A stretch of 22,529 nt of DNA from NCBI GenBank assembly GCA_016193065.1, contig JACPSX010000172.1:1-22529 (forward strand), written 5' to 3'. The notes under the pieces were generated by a model. That model was not told the DNA's origin and did not search any database. It saw nothing but the letters and a program-made list of their open reading frames with translations. Origin of the DNA: Candidatus Tectimicrobiota bacterium. GTDB lineage: Bacteria; JACPSX01. Below, piece by piece: positions 1,862 through 17,143 of this stretch. Positions within the stretch are counted from its first letter, which is position 1; every line of letters begins with the position of its first letter. The position numbers and the translations under genes are program-made.

Positions 1862-2386
1862 TCAAGGCCCAGTGTCTGGTGGGGGCTTGGAAATGTTCTT
1901 GAGATAAGGAATCAGCCCATCCGAAGAAATGATATCGAGAAGGAATTCCGGTATCGGTATTCCTTGATGTGCTTTTCCGGAATTCAAATTCTCAATTTTG
2001 CCATTGACAAGATCTATTTCTAGCTCATCTCCTTCATTCACCCCAGCGCTTATTCCCCGGCACTCTATGAGAGGAAGGCCGACATTGATCGCGTTCCGAT
2101 AAAATATTCTCGCGAAGAATTCCGCGAGTATCACGTTCACATTTGCTGCCTTTAAAGCCACCGGCGCCCACTCTCTCGCTGAACCTCCCCCGAAATTCTT
2201 TCCTGCCACAATACAACCGCCGCCTGACAGCTTTTGCAGAAAAGCGGGGTCATAATCTCTTAAGGCGATTTTTGCCAACTCCTCAGGCTTCGTTGAAGTC
2301 ACGTATTTGCTTGAAGTAATCGAATCCGTGGTCACATTATCTCCGTATTTCGCCCTTACCACGCTCCTTATGGCTAAGAGACCCAT
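1862..2386 (-). CDS. LeuD-like small subunit of an aconitase-family hydro-lyase (possible DmdB-type)
   Basis: The 174-residue product matches the swivelling small subunit of isopropylmalate isomerase-type hydro-lyases: an N-terminal YGDNVTTDSITSSKYV strand, then GGCIVAGKNFGGGSAREWAP (residues 56-75) and FFARIFYRNAINVGLPLIEC (90-109). It should pair with the LeuC-like large subunit encoded at the head of the same operon. The diagnostic loop is unusual: LeuD and homoaconitase small subunits normally read NFGCGSSREHAP, whereas here Cys is Gly, Ser is Ala and the His before Ala-Pro is Trp (residues 64-75). This loop contacts substrate in the family, so the change points to a different substrate from isopropylmalate. 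The start is supported by AGAAGGGAG just upstream. The gene lies 137 nt after the lyase gene, the widest gap in the operon, and its last residues (about KPPPDTGP) run to the edge of the lower-GC block, so the native C-terminus may have been altered. Confidence 0.82.
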   Translation of the reverse strand: MGLLAIRSVVRAKYGDNVTTDSITSSKYVTSTKPEELAKIALRDYDPAFLQKLSGGGCIVAGKNFGGGSAREWAPVALKAANVNVILAEFFARIFYRNAINVGLPLIECRGISAGVNEGDELEIDLVNGKIENLNSGKAHQGIPIPEFLLDIISSDGLIPYLKNISKPPPDTGP

Positions 2387-2523
2387 GTTTCTCCCTTCTG
2401 CGATTGTGCAAGGCTCTGCCGGAACTATCGCTGATGATCTTTGCCCGCCTCGAGCCTCGGCCGCCGCCGGCCTTTCTCTATAAAGATGGCTTCATCCTAA
2501 TTTCTCTACTATGTGCAAATACT

Positions 2524-3411
2524 CTATGTGCTGCTGACTTGAAGATTGAACTTTTTTTCCAATTCGTTTATCTTTTCAATCCCCATGAGCCCGGATATCT
2601 CGCTAAGGGAAACCATCTTTGAGAGAGACTCCTCTATTGAGCCATTCTCTTTAAATTCTCTCAGCACACTCCTGAAAGCGACAGGGGCAACCTTAAACAG
2701 CACCTGTACAATCGCCATGTTAATTCCCAATTCCTCCAGGCCAGGTCTTGTAAACATCCCCATCTTGGCCGACGGCGGCAGTATGGCTGATGACACCCAT
2801 CCATCAATGCTCCGCCTTATCTCTTTCAATTCATCTATATTTTTCGGAGTTTCAACTGTAATTATATCGGCCCCCGCTTCCCTGTAGATCTTGGCCCGGC
2901 GGATCGCCTCCTCCAAACCGTAAACCGAATTCACATCCGTCCTGGCCTTTATTACCAGCCCTGATTCGGATGCTTCCCGGATAGCCTTAATCTTATAGGC
3001 CATTTCTTCCGCGCTTATGAATTCCTTCCCCCCAAAGTGTCCGCATTTCTTCGGGAATACCTGATCCTCCAGATGGATCCCTGCCGCCCCTGCAATTTCC
3101 AGTTCTTTTACCGTCCTCCAGACATTCAGGGGGTTGCCATAGCCGGTATCTGCGTCGACCATTACGGGAATATCCACACAATTCGCCATATATTTGGTCA
3201 TCATCACCATTTCACTCATCGTGACCAGTCCAACATCAGGCTGCCCTAGTAAGCTCGCCGCAACTCCAAAACCCGTCAACCAGATAGCCTCAAAACCCTC
3301 CTTTTCAACCACCTTCGCGGAAATACCATCATAAGCAGCGACCATAATTAGCATCTGTTTTCTGCTCAATAATTCTCTCAACCTTCTTGCCATTTCGGCC
3401 GATTTTCCCAT
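2524..3411 (-). CDS. Isocitrate lyase/PEP mutase superfamily carbon-carbon lyase (2-methylisocitrate lyase or 2,3-dimethylmalate lyase-like)
   Basis: This 295-residue enzyme has the family's TIM-barrel signatures: VAAYDGISAKVVEKEGFEAI (residues 24-43), the Mg-binding VDADTGYGN (85-93), HLEDQ (113-117), and the catalytic loop FPKKCGHF (119-126) whose KKCGH places it with the true lyases (methylisocitrate, dimethylmalate and isocitrate lyases) rather than PEP mutases. It should cleave a substituted malate or methylisocitrate-type acid into pyruvate or glyoxylate plus a carboxylic acid. An ATG exists at 3417, but AGGAGG sits only one base before it and seven bases before the ATG at 3411, so 3411 is the likelier start. 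It is 31 nt downstream of the binding-protein gene and shares the operon with the LeuC/LeuD-like pair. That pairing favours a 2,3-dimethylmalate-lyase-like role over the methylcitrate cycle, as no citrate synthase or MmgE/PrpD is present. Oxaloacetate decarboxylase is an alternative. Confidence 0.86.
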   Translation of the reverse strand: MGKSAEMARRLRELLSRKQMLIMVAAYDGISAKVVEKEGFEAIWLTGFGVAASLLGQPDVGLVTMSEMVMMTKYMANCVDIPVMVDADTGYGNPLNVWRTVKELEIAGAAGIHLEDQVFPKKCGHFGGKEFISAEEMAYKIKAIREASESGLVIKARTDVNSVYGLEEAIRRAKIYREAGADIITVETPKNIDELKEIRRSIDGWVSSAILPPSAKMGMFTRPGLEELGINMAIVQVLFKVAPVAFRSVLREFKENGSIEESLSKMVSLSEISGLMGIEKINELEKKFNLQVSST

Positions 3412-3442
3412 TTTCATTCCTCCTGTTGGTAGAGGGCGCCGG

Positions 3443-4441
3443 CTAGTTTCTAAGACCCAACTCTTTCTGGGCCATTTCCAGGTACTTCAGATTAATAAAT
3501 TTCCGATAATCCGGAAATGGCGAGGAGATCAAGCCTGCCATTTCCATGAGCACCATCACCTGTTTCATCCCTTCTGGACTTATTTCTCCATCTTGAGAGA
3601 GTGAGCCTAATTTATTCAGATAATCCAATATACGGCCTCCGATTTCCCGCTCCATCGATTCTCTTTTGACTAGGATGTCGATGGCCTTCTCTCTATTCGC
3701 ATTTCCTACCAACCATCGATTGGCTCTTATCATTGCCTTCACATATCCGGTTACAGCATTGGGATTTGCAGCCGCATAATCCGTATTCACGCCAACAACC
3801 AACTGATAGACATCTTTTCCATACTCCCCGATGCCAGCGAGTTTCAAAAAGCCCTCGTCCATTGCCTTAAATCCAGCCGTTGGCGATAGAATGGCCGCAT
3901 CAATCCTACCGGCCTTTAATCCCAGGTATCGTTCTCTTGTGGATCCGACCGTAAGCATAGTGTAATCAGTCTTCGCCAAGCCTTCTTCTTTTAAAATCGC
4001 TTCTGCGATTGTCGTGCTACCCCCGGGGCCTCCCGTGCCGATCATAGCCCCTTTTAGGTCCTTAACGGACCGATACTTTGGTAGCGCGACTAGACTTGAA
4101 GCGTCGTTCTTGATTACGACGGATACGATCGCGATCTTTGCTCCTTGCTTAGCTGCCAATATGGCGGCATCAGGAGCGGGGATGGCAATCGGTGTGGAAT
4201 TTGCGACCACGGATTGGACTGTCACGGAACTTCTCCTGAGTTCTGTAAATTCGACGGCTAGCCCCGCTTCGGAAAAATAACCGTTTTCCAGGGCAACCAA
4301 AATTGGCCAGGAGAGCGTGCCGAGAATTTGTGTACTGCTGGCGAGCCTTGTCGCGGCGAGTGATTTGGAACTACTCAGGAGAAACAAAGAAACGAGAGTA
4401 AGTAGGACCGTTAGTACCTTCTTAAGCGTACCGGGTTTCAT
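3443..4441 (-). CDS. ABC transporter periplasmic substrate-binding protein, NitT/TauT (NMT1/SsuA-like) family
   Basis: The 332-residue product begins with a basic N-terminus and a long hydrophobic core (about residues 6-29, ending SKSLAA), a Sec signal peptide. The mature part has the periplasmic-binding type 2 layout: LSWPILVALENGYFSEAGLAVEFTEL near the start, an APDAAILAAKQGAKIAIVSVV strand, the hinge segment YRSVKDLKGAMIGTGGPGGSTT, and a C-terminal NREKAIDILVKRESMEREIG helix region. It should capture a small organic anion in the periplasm. The start is well supported by GGGGAGGG about 6 nt before ATG 4441. It sits between the LeuC-like and lyase genes with gaps of 16 and 31 nt, so it is probably co-transcribed and delivers the substrate or a precursor of this pathway. 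No permease or ATPase accompanies it, so it must share a transporter encoded elsewhere. The ligand cannot be read from sequence. Confidence 0.85.
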   Translation of the reverse strand: MKPGTLKKVLTVLLTLVSLFLLSSSKSLAATRLASSTQILGTLSWPILVALENGYFSEAGLAVEFTELRRSSVTVQSVVANSTPIAIPAPDAAILAAKQGAKIAIVSVVIKNDASSLVALPKYRSVKDLKGAMIGTGGPGGSTTIAEAILKEEGLAKTDYTMLTVGSTRERYLGLKAGRIDAAILSPTAGFKAMDEGFLKLAGIGEYGKDVYQLVVGVNTDYAAANPNAVTGYVKAMIRANRWLVGNANREKAIDILVKRESMEREIGGRILDYLNKLGSLSQDGEISPEGMKQVMVLMEMAGLISSPFPDYRKFINLKYLEMAQKELGLRN

Positions 4442-4457
4442 TCGGATCCCTCCCCTT

Positions 4458-5717
4458 TCACTCCCCGAGGAATTTTCTCGGATCTGTCATCTCCCCGCTC
4501 GCCGCGGACGCCGCAACCGTAGCCGCCGAGCCGAGATAAATCTGTGCCGATGGACTCCCCATCCTTCCCCGAAAATTTCTCGATCCACTACTGATGCAGA
4601 CTTCCCCATCCCCCAATACACCCATATGTCCTCCACCACAGGGTCCACAACTGGAGTTGCATAGGATCGCCCCAGCTTCTAAGAACGTATCAATAATCCC
4701 TTCCTTTATCGCGTTCTGGTAAATTTCTACAGAGCCGGGGAAAATTAGAAACCGCGTATCCTTTGGGATGGTTCTCCCTTTCAATATCTTCGCCGCGATT
4801 CGTAGGTCTTCCATTCTCCCATTCGTGCACGTGCCTAGAAACGCCTGATCAACGTGTATCCCTTCTACCTCTGATATCGGCTTTACATTGTCCGGGCTAT
4901 GAGGACAGGCAACCAGAGGAGTCAATTGCGAGGCGTCAATGTGGAGTGTTTGACTGTACTTGGCATCATCATCACTGCGCACAACGGTGAAGGGCATTCT
5001 TGATTTCTCCCGCACATAATCGGTCATTTTGTCATCGGGCTCGATAATCCCGTTTTTGGCTCCAGCTTCCACGGACATATTGGCTAGCGTTATACGACCA
5101 TCAATGGTTAATTCCCCGATCGCCGTACCCGCAAATTCCAAGGCTTTATAGGTAGCGCCGTCAACCCCCAGCTCCTTGAGTATCGATAACATGATATCCT
5201 TGCCAAAGATTGAAGAGTTGAATTTGCCATCAATTCTCACAAGAATTGTCTCCGGGACTCTGAACCAAAGGGTCCCTTTTGCCAATACATAAACCATTTC
5301 CGTCGCGCCAATTCCGATTGCAACCGCACCAAAAGCGCCATGGGTTACAGTGTGGGATTCCACCCCCACGATTAATTCTCCTGGTCTTATATGGCCAGTC
5401 TCGGGCAGAACCACGTGCATGATTCCTCTATGAGGATAGAAATACTTAATCCCACAGTCCTTGACAAATTGATTTGTCTCTTTGACATTATCAGCTTTCC
5501 ATGTTGCGCTTGGCGGCGAGAAATGGTCTATGACGACAACAACGCGCTCCACATCCCATATCCCGGCGCCGACTTCTTTCAGCCCCCTATAGATTGAGGG
5601 CGTGGTAATTTCCTGCATTAAGGCCAGATCAATATTTGCATCTATGATGTCGCCGGCCCTAACAGACTCTCTCCCCGATGCCCTGGCAAAAATCTTTTCT
5701 GTGATGGTCATTCCCAT
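4458..5717 (-). CDS. LeuC-like large subunit of an aconitase-family hydro-lyase (possible DmdA-type)
   Basis: This 419-residue protein is the catalytic, [4Fe-4S]-binding large subunit of an isopropylmalate isomerase/homoaconitase-type dehydratase. Three cluster cysteines are in place: Cys297 in LGTCTNGR and Cys357 and Cys360 in NSSCGPCGG. Other family marks are VVVIDHFSPPS (60-70), GVESHTVTHGAFGAVAIGIGATE (118-140) and RNFRGRMGSPSAQIYLGS near the C-terminus. Length matches the roughly 420-residue archaeal/clostridial LeuC2 and DmdA class rather than the longer proteobacterial LeuC. AAGGAAG six bases before ATG 5717 supports the start; an internal ATG two codons later would give MTITEKIFA. It is the first gene of the minus-strand operon with a LeuD-like partner as the last gene. 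No leuA or leuB lies nearby, so leucine synthesis is unlikely. 2,3-Dimethylmalate dehydratase, citramalate/mesaconate or homoaconitate hydratase activity are the reasonable candidates. Confidence 0.88.
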   Translation of the reverse strand: MGMTITEKIFARASGRESVRAGDIIDANIDLALMQEITTPSIYRGLKEVGAGIWDVERVVVVIDHFSPPSATWKADNVKETNQFVKDCGIKYFYPHRGIMHVVLPETGHIRPGELIVGVESHTVTHGAFGAVAIGIGATEMVYVLAKGTLWFRVPETILVRIDGKFNSSIFGKDIMLSILKELGVDGATYKALEFAGTAIGELTIDGRITLANMSVEAGAKNGIIEPDDKMTDYVREKSRMPFTVVRSDDDAKYSQTLHIDASQLTPLVACPHSPDNVKPISEVEGIHVDQAFLGTCTNGRMEDLRIAAKILKGRTIPKDTRFLIFPGSVEIYQNAIKEGIIDTFLEAGAILCNSSCGPCGGGHMGVLGDGEVCISSGSRNFRGRMGSPSAQIYLGSAATVAASAASGEMTDPRKFLGE

Positions 5718-15383: not shown

Positions 15384-15428
15384 CTATCCACAAGTAAATT
15401 CTTGTCACTCACTAGGGAGGGTTCTGAC

Positions 15429-16418
15429 ATGTTAAGGCGTATTCTAACTGCGCTTATAATTTCGGCTCTGATCATCGTCCCATTCTTCGGTCACGCACAG
15501 CCGATTCGAATTAGTTATGGCGGAACATCAGGATTTGGCACGCCCTTGCTGCTTACCCTTCAGATGGGCCTTTTTAAAAAGCACGGGATAGATTTAGAGC
15601 ATATACTCATGCCGGGAATGGGTGTACAAGCGCTATTAGCCCGTGAGGTTCAATTTGCTCACCCCGGAGCGGCCCCCGCAATCTATGCAGCGCTTCAAGG
15701 GGCTGACGTTGTCATGGTGGCCTCGTATTATAACGTCCTACCTTACAGCCTTGTAGTTCATGAGAATATTGTCAATCCCCTAGATCTGAAGGGAAAAAAG
15801 GTTGCGATTTCTCGTGTAGGAGGTATCGACGACTTCTCCGTTCAGCTTGCATTTAAGAAACTTGGCTTGGCTCCCAAGGATACCGCACTTATTCAAGTAG
15901 GCGCAGATGCGGAAAGAATTGCGGCAGTTCGGTCCGGCGCTGCGGCGGCCACGGTCAACGCTCCGCCAGCAGTTTTCACTGCTCAAAAGCTGGGCCTGAA
16001 GGTGCTGGTAGACCTTGGTGAACTGGACATTCCTTATCCTATAGGAGTGGTGGTCACGACGCGTTCCTATTTGTCCGAGAACCGCGCTACCGCCAAGCGT
16101 TTCCTCATGGCGCTTGTTGAAGGGCTAGATATCTACGTCTATGAGAAGGACGTTGCGCTGAGCGTTATGGCGAAGCTTACAAGAATGAGAGACCAAGACC
16201 TATTGTCTAAGTCCTATGACTATTTCGCCAAGGGTATGTCCCTAGTTCCTTTATTGAACCCCACTGCCGTGGAAAATGCCCTATTGGGCGCTGGTGCGAG
16301 CGGCCGTGATGTTGGGAAATTCTATGACAATTCGGTGCTGCAAGAGTTGGTGAAAGAGGGATTTATAGATCGGATTGCCAAAAATCGGATTGCCAAAAAA
16401 CGGAGCGGTGGGTCGTGA
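15429..16418 (+). CDS. ABC transporter periplasmic substrate-binding protein, NitT/TauT (NMT1/SsuA-like) family
   Basis: The 329-residue product opens with a signal peptide ending FFGHA (about residue 23). The mature protein runs RISYGGTSGFGTPLLLTLQM, GLFKKHGIDLEHILMPG, a QGADVVMVASYYN strand, the hinge NPLDLKGKKVAISRVGGIDD and the helix NRATAKRFLMALVEGLDIYV, matching NMT1/SsuA-like binding proteins. AGGGAGGG seven bases before ATG 15429 decides the start over a TTG at 15402. GC content is clearly lower than in ftsH upstream, suggesting separate acquisition. The C-terminus carries an imperfect duplicated RIAKN/RIAKK peptide from a 15-bp tandem repeat. The next small frame overlaps its stop, then a cupin gene follows. 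No permease or ATPase is present; the ligand is unknown. Confidence 0.87.
   Translation: MLRRILTALIISALIIVPFFGHAQPIRISYGGTSGFGTPLLLTLQMGLFKKHGIDLEHILMPGMGVQALLAREVQFAHPGAAPAIYAALQGADVVMVASYYNVLPYSLVVHENIVNPLDLKGKKVAISRVGGIDDFSVQLAFKKLGLAPKDTALIQVGADAERIAAVRSGAAAATVNAPPAVFTAQKLGLKVLVDLGELDIPYPIGVVVTTRSYLSENRATAKRFLMALVEGLDIYVYEKDVALSVMAKLTRMRDQDLLSKSYDYFAKGMSLVPLLNPTAVENALLGAGASGRDVGKFYDNSVLQELVKEGFIDRIAKNRIAKKRSGGS
16371..16400 (+). repeat. 15-bp tandem duplication inside the SBP C-terminus
   Basis: CGGATTGCCAAAAAT (16371-16385) is followed by CGGATTGCCAAAAAA (16386-16400), 14 of 15 identical and in frame. It adds one RIAKK-type pentapeptide to the tail of the binding protein and looks like replication slippage. 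Confidence 0.85.
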
Positions 16419-16675
16419 CAATGAATCTTGAGCCTGAAGTGACAAGTTTAGTAAAGAACACACAGATGTGCTCCACGATTTGGGGCGACTCCCACGATAT
16501 TATAAATCGTATGATGGTTTTGAGAAGGATTGAATTGGTCCTTTGCTTTCCAATCGAAGAGAACCTGCAGATTGCTAACCCTAAATCCGAGCAGCCCGCG
16601 GATATGAGGTTACCCTGCGGCAACGAGTTCTTAGAGTTTGTTAATAACCTGCACATTGTAAGAGATGAGCTTTGA
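16415..16675 (+). CDS. Small hypothetical protein (ORFan)
   Basis: The frame starts at GTG 16415, overlapping the TGA of the binding-protein gene (16416-16418), with an in-frame ATG two codons later at 16421; GGAGCGG lies 8-14 bases upstream. The 86-residue product has no signal peptide, no recognisable motif and three scattered cysteines. Its middle (MMVLRRIELVLCFPIEENLQ) could form a strand-helix unit. The overlap with the upstream stop and the 30-nt gap to the cupin gene fit an operon position, but its composition does not exclude a chance frame in AT-richer DNA or a decayed gene. No function is proposed. Confidence 0.4.
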   Translation: MTMNLEPEVTSLVKNTQMCSTIWGDSHDIINRMMVLRRIELVLCFPIEENLQIANPKSEQPADMRLPCGNEFLEFVNNLHIVRDEL

Positions 16676-16705
16676 CTTATAAATTTATGGAAGGGAGGAT
16701 GTTCC

Positions 16706-17143
16706 ATGCAGCAAGCTGGTAAGATGTTTGTTTCGAAGTTCAAGGAAATACGTCCGCATTGGTCACAGCCGGGTGGGCCGGGCACCCAGATGGCGACGAA
16801 CACACTCGTCGGTGGCCCTCCACCTTACCTTCACTGGGATCGTGATAGGGGGATCGTTTGTGATTCCTGCGCGGCTGGGACCTTTCTTCTTCCTCGTGAC
16901 TGCATTCAAGTCCTCCACCGCCATCCAGTCGATGAGGTGTATGTACTAGTCCGAGGAAGAGCTACATTCAGGAGCGATGAAGGACCGGAGATTGAGGCGG
17001 AGCCGTTTGACTGCATGTACGCACCAGCAGGGGTCTACCACGCAGCAAGGAACATAGGACTGGAAGATGCGTGGATCATTTGGTTCTGGGTAGGGTTGTG
17101 TAGACCCGAAGACTTTGAAATATACCCCGACGCGTCCAAGTAG
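16706..17143 (+). CDS. Cupin domain-containing protein
   Basis: The 145-residue protein carries a single cupin domain. Motif 1 is HRHPVDEVYVLVRG, giving metal ligands His71, His73 and Glu77. Motif 2 is APAGVYHAARN with His112. All four usual ligands are present, so it probably binds Fe, Mn or Zn. Single-domain cupins of this size act as small dioxygenases, decarboxylases, isomerases or sensors; the sequence does not discriminate. AAGGGAGG seven bases before ATG 16706 is a strong ribosome site. It lies on the same strand as the binding protein and ORFan and shares their lower GC, so these three may form one acquired unit; the very GC-rich E1 genes start 81 nt later and may not belong to it. 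Confidence 0.8.
   Translation: MQQAGKMFVSKFKEIRPHWSQPGGPGTQMATNTLVGGPPPYLHWDRDRGIVCDSCAAGTFLLPRDCIQVLHRHPVDEVYVLVRGRATFRSDEGPEIEAEPFDCMYAPAGVYHAARNIGLEDAWIIWFWVGLCRPEDFEIYPDASK

Follow-up and report, generated by a model that had tools for sequence, protein, structure and literature searches.

An operon predicted to take up and hydrate a small branched unsaturated dicarboxylate and to split the product in a retro-aldol reaction, from a Candidatus Tectimicrobiota bacterium

Does a gene cluster that combines LeuC- and LeuD-like subunits with a C-C lyase and a periplasmic binding protein serve leucine synthesis, the methylcitrate cycle or a different pathway? The question is raised by four genes of the window, i.e., the whole stretch of 22,529 nucleotides that was analysed, which is one contig (C139) of the 2.9 Mb, 294-contig genome (G000, 86% complete) of a Candidatus Tectimicrobiota bacterium. 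In the nicotinate fermentation of Eubacterium barkeri, a LeuCD-type dimethylmaleate hydratase (DmdAB) acts with a 2,3-dimethylmalate lyase of the ICL/PEP-mutase family, and an earlier sequence-only reading of the window had proposed the same chemistry here. The present analyses indicate that the locus is fairly likely to be a catabolic operon whose products are predicted to take up a small branched unsaturated C4 dicarboxylate of the citraconate/dimethylmaleate class, to hydrate it and to cleave the hydrated compound by a retro-aldol reaction.

The open reading frames and their family matches bore out four genes on the minus strand which, read from position 5717 to 1862, encode a LeuC-like protein, an NMT1-type binding protein, a lyase with a KKCGH motif and a LeuD-like protein:

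4458..5717, minus strand: large subunit (LeuC/HacA type) of a hydro-lyase with a [4Fe-4S] cluster, 419 aa, ATG start
3443..4441, minus strand: NMT1/SsuA-type periplasmic substrate-binding protein, 332 aa, ATG start, N-terminal signal sequence judged by eye
2524..3417, minus strand: C-C lyase of the isocitrate lyase/PEP mutase superfamily, 297 aa, ATG start, alternative start at 3411
2387..2523, minus strand: spacer between the lyase and LeuD genes, 137 nt, without a called gene
1862..2386, minus strand: LeuD/DmdB-type small subunit, 174 aa, ATG start

The intergenic gaps of this operon are 16, 25 and 137 nt; the first and the last agree with those given previously, while the previous value of 31 nt for the middle gap holds when the lyase gene is taken to start at its second in-frame ATG instead of at its first. 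Pfam assigned the LeuC-like protein to the Aconitase family (PF00330, 1.3e-99), the binding protein to NMT1 (PF09084, 2e-25), the lyase to PEP_mutase (PF13714, 5e-52) as well as ICL (PF00463), and the LeuD-like protein to Aconitase_C (PF00694, 1e-14). The LeuC-like and LeuD-like proteins also exceeded the cut-offs of the NCBIfam models IPMI_arch and LEUD_arch ("LeuD/DmdB family"), respectively. As the sequence-only reading had stated, leuA, leuB, citrate synthase and PrpD were all absent from the scanned proteins of the 22.5-kb contig, on which the operon lies 1.9 kb from the left end.

Composition analysis revealed that all four genes, the binding protein gene included, have a GC content of 0.48-0.50 and a GC3 of 0.48-0.55, as against a GC3 of 0.75-0.89 in most remaining genes of the window and about 60% GC in the genome's other contigs. 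This shared foreign composition suggests that the four genes probably arrived together, as a unit, by horizontal transfer. Given one composition across four genes and the recurrence of LeuC, LeuD and lyase in many genomes, described below, the arrangement is no product of chance. A second low-GC patch of the window (15402-17143; GC3 0.51-0.56) carries another NMT1 binding protein and a cupin gene. On the operon's other side, an iron-containing alcohol dehydrogenase gene (592-1800) is convergent with the operon and has a host-like GC3 of 0.84; nothing ties it to the operon.

The recurrence of the pairing was investigated with a search profile built from four LeuCD-linked lyases, the window lyase among them, which was run against 386 genomes at E<=1e-98. 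The profile matched 12 of these, and LeuC and LeuD adjoin the lyase in all eight of the newly found genomes, i.e., once the four seed genomes, that of the window included, are set aside. The 80 named loci that rank nearest to the lyase include 15 with LeuC within about 2.8 kb and four more with LeuC within about 5 kb. LeuCD genes beside a lyase occur in at least seven phyla, comprising records from Bacillota, Thermodesulfobacteriota, Pseudomonadota, Abyssobacteria, Poribacteria and Thermoplasmatota and records labelled Myxococcota; a contig search with the window lyase alone as the query found no close relative. In both the LeuC and the lyase tree, the pairing must have been gained or lost several times; it was therefore probably assembled more than once, and relatives need not have a common substrate, as the pairing appears to have arisen repeatedly. 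A description of operons with LeuCD and an ICL-family lyase was not found in the literature searched, an absence that is no proof of novelty. In four loci (L028, L056, L057 and L058), LeuC, LeuD and the lyase lie near an isopropylmalate/homoisocitrate-type dehydrogenase, resembling the branch point of aconitase, isocitrate dehydrogenase and isocitrate lyase. In three others (L079, L088 and L115), they accompany amidohydrolase/hydantoinase-like and isochorismatase-family genes (Pfam-confirmed in L115 only), which suggests that ring or amide hydrolysis may feed the hydratase-lyase pair there.

A dedicated role in substrate capture had been attributed to the binding protein. By analogy, the best support for a link with uptake is an array of a distant relative, Deltaproteobacteria Ww165 (L099), in which a dehydrogenase, LeuC, LeuD, the lyase, an NMT1 binding protein, an ATPase and two permeases follow one another, the key members being Pfam-confirmed. 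This array and the window both unite LeuC, LeuD, lyase and NMT1 binding protein in a single gene array, but L099 differs in gene order, in its complete importer and in its extra isopropylmalate/isocitrate-type dehydrogenase, and the two binding proteins are only about 26% identical. In L115, an NMT1 protein is encoded two genes past LeuD, with an amidohydrolase between them and an isochorismatase-family gene farther on. Other transport genes flanking relatives, identified by eye, are of the TRAP type in L139 and L090 and of the branched-chain-type ABC class in L079.

Compared with an NMT1-type ABC importer, the window provides the binding protein without a neighbouring partner, the Pfam and protein scan of the window proteins having detected neither permease nor ATPase. 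The 2.9 Mb genome moreover holds about 50 NMT1 matches, of which about 35 lack any PF00528 permease up to about 3 kb away, and with both facts in view an uptake role is likely rather than secured. The enzymes and their chemistry would be unchanged if the binding protein were incidental, one of many NMT1 proteins that happened to land in the operon. These genomic counts, the three NMT1 genes within the window and the absence of an NMT1 gene from most LeuCD-lyase relatives all favor such an accident, which we nevertheless consider rather unlikely, since the gene has the operon-like GC3 (0.51) and not the value of most other genes, is tightly spaced from its neighbors on both sides, and has NMT1 counterparts joined to LeuCD and lyase in L115 and, with a whole ABC importer, in L099. 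A place of the binding protein in the pathway is thus plausible: a capture role is favored by the composition that it shares with the enzymes and by the L099 array, and the number of NMT1 matches, most of them without a permease gene nearby, weakens the word "dedicated".

Analysis of the hydratase subunits showed that the three cluster cysteines of LeuC (Cys297, Cys357 and Cys360) are present and that the active-site residues H101, N213, R380 and R385 are kept. Two substitutions stand out among the compared LeuC sequences, D120E being unique in the 44 compared and N379S rare, and LeuD reads GSARE where GSSRE is expected. A five-residue loop of the small subunit determines substrate preference (PMC7308503). 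In the window LeuD this recognition region is YVTST, nearer to the YLVYT of an isopropylmalate/citramalate isomerase (3vba) than to the YLRTT of a homoaconitase small subunit (2pkp). The missing arginine argues against a substrate bearing an extra distal carboxylate, and aconitase-, homoaconitase- or methylcitrate-type use would thereby be disfavoured. Homoaconitase was ranked low as an identity on the same loop difference and on a HacA equivalog score of 488.6, below 550.

For both subunits the best solved match is the isopropylmalate/citramalate isomerase of Methanocaldococcus jannaschii (large subunit 4nqy/4kp1, 2e-135 with LeuC; small subunit 3vba, 1e-53 with LeuD). The window proteins depart from it in the two LeuC substitutions and in the GSARE and YVTST motifs of LeuD, and, unlike the M. 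jannaschii isomerase, they are associated with a lyase, LeuB being absent from the association. A genome-wide search revealed that the window set is not the only LeuCD of the genome: further LeuC genes with an adjoining LeuD are located on contigs C5, C214 and C229, and a partial LeuC on C293. Contig C166 encodes LeuA, and contig C15 a CimA-like citramalate synthase, both named from their own sequences, so that leucine synthesis need not rely on the window genes. In the LeuC tree, the C5 copy clusters with LeuC genes adjoining ilvB/ilvH or leuB. The window LeuC lies outside this clade in the best tree, and its inclusion gave AU p values of 0.37 (wide clade) and 0.07 (core). Scores against the leucine equivalogs were below cut-off for both LeuC (487 against 610.65, LEU2) and LeuD (172.9 against 245.85, leud), cut-offs that discriminate weakly because the genome's other LeuCD sets also fall below them. 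In C229 (672-4887; L010), an isopropylmalate/isocitrate-type dehydrogenase, LeuC, LeuD and two RraA-type proteins (judged by eye) lie in a row, an array that represents another possible LeuCD-based pathway of the same genome.

These data bear on the possibility that the window LeuCD is an isopropylmalate/citramalate isomerase of leucine/isoleucine synthesis, with the lyase and the binding protein as bystanders in an acquired segment. The closest solved structure, the presence of LeuA and a CimA-like synthase and the AU values are in its favor, but we judge it decidedly unlikely in view of the three other LeuC-LeuD pairs, one of them in the ilvB/ilvH/leuB-linked clade, of the sub-threshold LEU2 and leud scores, which the genome's other sets share, and of the repeated occurrence of related lyases next to LeuCD. 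The previous claim that leucine synthesis fits less well thus keeps its footing in the other LeuCD sets and in the lack of adjoining leuA or leuB; as regards a LeuC placed apart from the isopropylmalate isomerases, a leucine-type ancestry is not rejected at either clade definition.

The lyase, which is the sole PEP_mutase-family match in the genome, contains the KKCGH motif reported before (residues 123-127), and its residues D61, D88, D90, E117, K123, C125, G126, H127, R159 and E189 are identical across 27 relatives. Its AlphaFold model has the expected fold (mean pLDDT 90), and Foldseek comparison with family members gave a TM of about 0.9. The best solved match by phmmer was the petal death protein PSR132 (1zlp; 7e-61, 209 bits), an alkylmalate/oxaloacetate lyase with the same fold (TM 0.88) and the same KKCGH motif; 3b8i, a PA4872-type oxaloacetate decarboxylase that was left out of the lyase tree, scored 95 bits. 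In this tree the window lyase is not placed in one clade with the petal death protein; it falls in a group of 13 rows, 10 of them LeuCD-linked, and the support for this position is modest (84/88).

The main peculiarity of the window lyase is a loop that is near-invariant in the 27 relatives (N..E.GG.TP; NMIEGGKTP in the petal death protein) and reads AILPPSAKMG (residues 211-220) in the window protein, with A for N211, M for T219 and G for P220. The solved 2,3-dimethylmalate lyase also differs from the window lyase at this pocket loop. Such an unusual loop suggests that the substrate may differ from that of any tested enzyme. It could further be supposed that with a lost carboxylate-binding loop the lyase has changed its reaction and is no longer a simple lyase; the three replacements and the low model confidence at residues 211-220 (mean pLDDT 63, lower than anywhere else in the model) point that way, but this is improbable, as all other compared catalytic residues are kept, the KKCGH cysteine included, and the loop also varies in other LeuCD-linked lyases (NMAP-RTP, NLMDAVSGVKTEL and NMAGPASKTP). 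Loss of the loop glutamate appeared to be tied to LeuCD-adjacent lyases, an association set aside as evidence because the set was partly gathered with a profile of such lyases. Methylcitrate- or aconitase-like use, with LeuCD acting on 2-methylaconitate or aconitate and the lyase being a 2-methylisocitrate or isocitrate lyase, has the same superfamily logic of dehydratase plus ICL-family lyase and the genome's only PEP_mutase-family match to its credit but is highly improbable, given that a PrpB/MICL grouping was rejected (AU p=0.0012), that the prpB score of 239.8 is below the cut-off of 354.4, that the LeuD loop lacks the homoaconitase arginine and that a separate aconitase on C236 adjoins an isocitrate dehydrogenase-like gene; the earlier view that the methylcitrate cycle fits less well is upheld.

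With respect to the preferred reading, a catabolic hydratase-lyase operon, the combination of hydratase and C-C lyase chemistry that had been proposed before is well supported by the intact Fe-S cysteines and lyase catalytic residues and by the LeuCD-lyase linkage across phyla and in every newly found genome. The substrate class, the reaction direction and the transport role are what we infer from sequence, and a branched unsaturated dicarboxylate, as initially suggested, holds up as the likely class. In the predicted pathway, the dicarboxylate or its precursor would first be captured outside the cell by the binding protein, from which a permease encoded elsewhere would take it over. The LeuC-LeuD pair would act as a [4Fe-4S] hydratase/isomerase: its substrate, a cis-unsaturated C4 dicarboxylate bearing small uncharged alkyl groups, would be hydrated at the double bond to give an alkylmalate. 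The KKCGH lyase would then split the C2-C3 bond by retro-aldol/Claisen chemistry, releasing glyoxylate or pyruvate as the 2-oxoacid together with a short carboxylate, for instance propionate. As a single best guess, which is itself unlikely to be exactly right, citraconate would be converted via 3-methylmalate to glyoxylate and propionate; dimethylmaleate, the next candidate, is more doubtful still.

The operon would thus work like DmdAB and Dml, a likeness of functional logic: both systems place a two-subunit LeuCD-type hydratase (here with three cluster cysteines) beside an ICL/PEP-mutase-family lyase (here with KKCGH), and the window differs in the NMT1 binding protein placed between LeuC and the lyase. 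A mutase, a Mii/PrpF-type isomerase and other nicotinate-fermentation genes were absent from the scanned proteins of the contig, whose end is 1.9 kb from the operon. Mii converts methylitaconate to dimethylmaleate, as cited in PMC4720413.

In a wider perspective, the window may tentatively be seen as one branch of a widespread, mostly uncharacterised group of uptake-linked modules of LeuCD and ICL-family lyase in bacteria and archaea, which would have been assembled repeatedly for different unsaturated dicarboxylates and would in some cases be fed by hydantoinase/isochorismatase-type hydrolases of rings and amides; this branch, because of its rewritten lyase pocket loop, would act on a substrate outside the range of the tested members. 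If so, the hydratase-lyase logic documented in the nicotinate pathway of one fermenter would recur as a catabolic module in phyla far apart from one another, where its genes are annotated one by one as belonging to leucine or methylcitrate metabolism, and the associated binding proteins would offer a direct experimental handle on its substrates.
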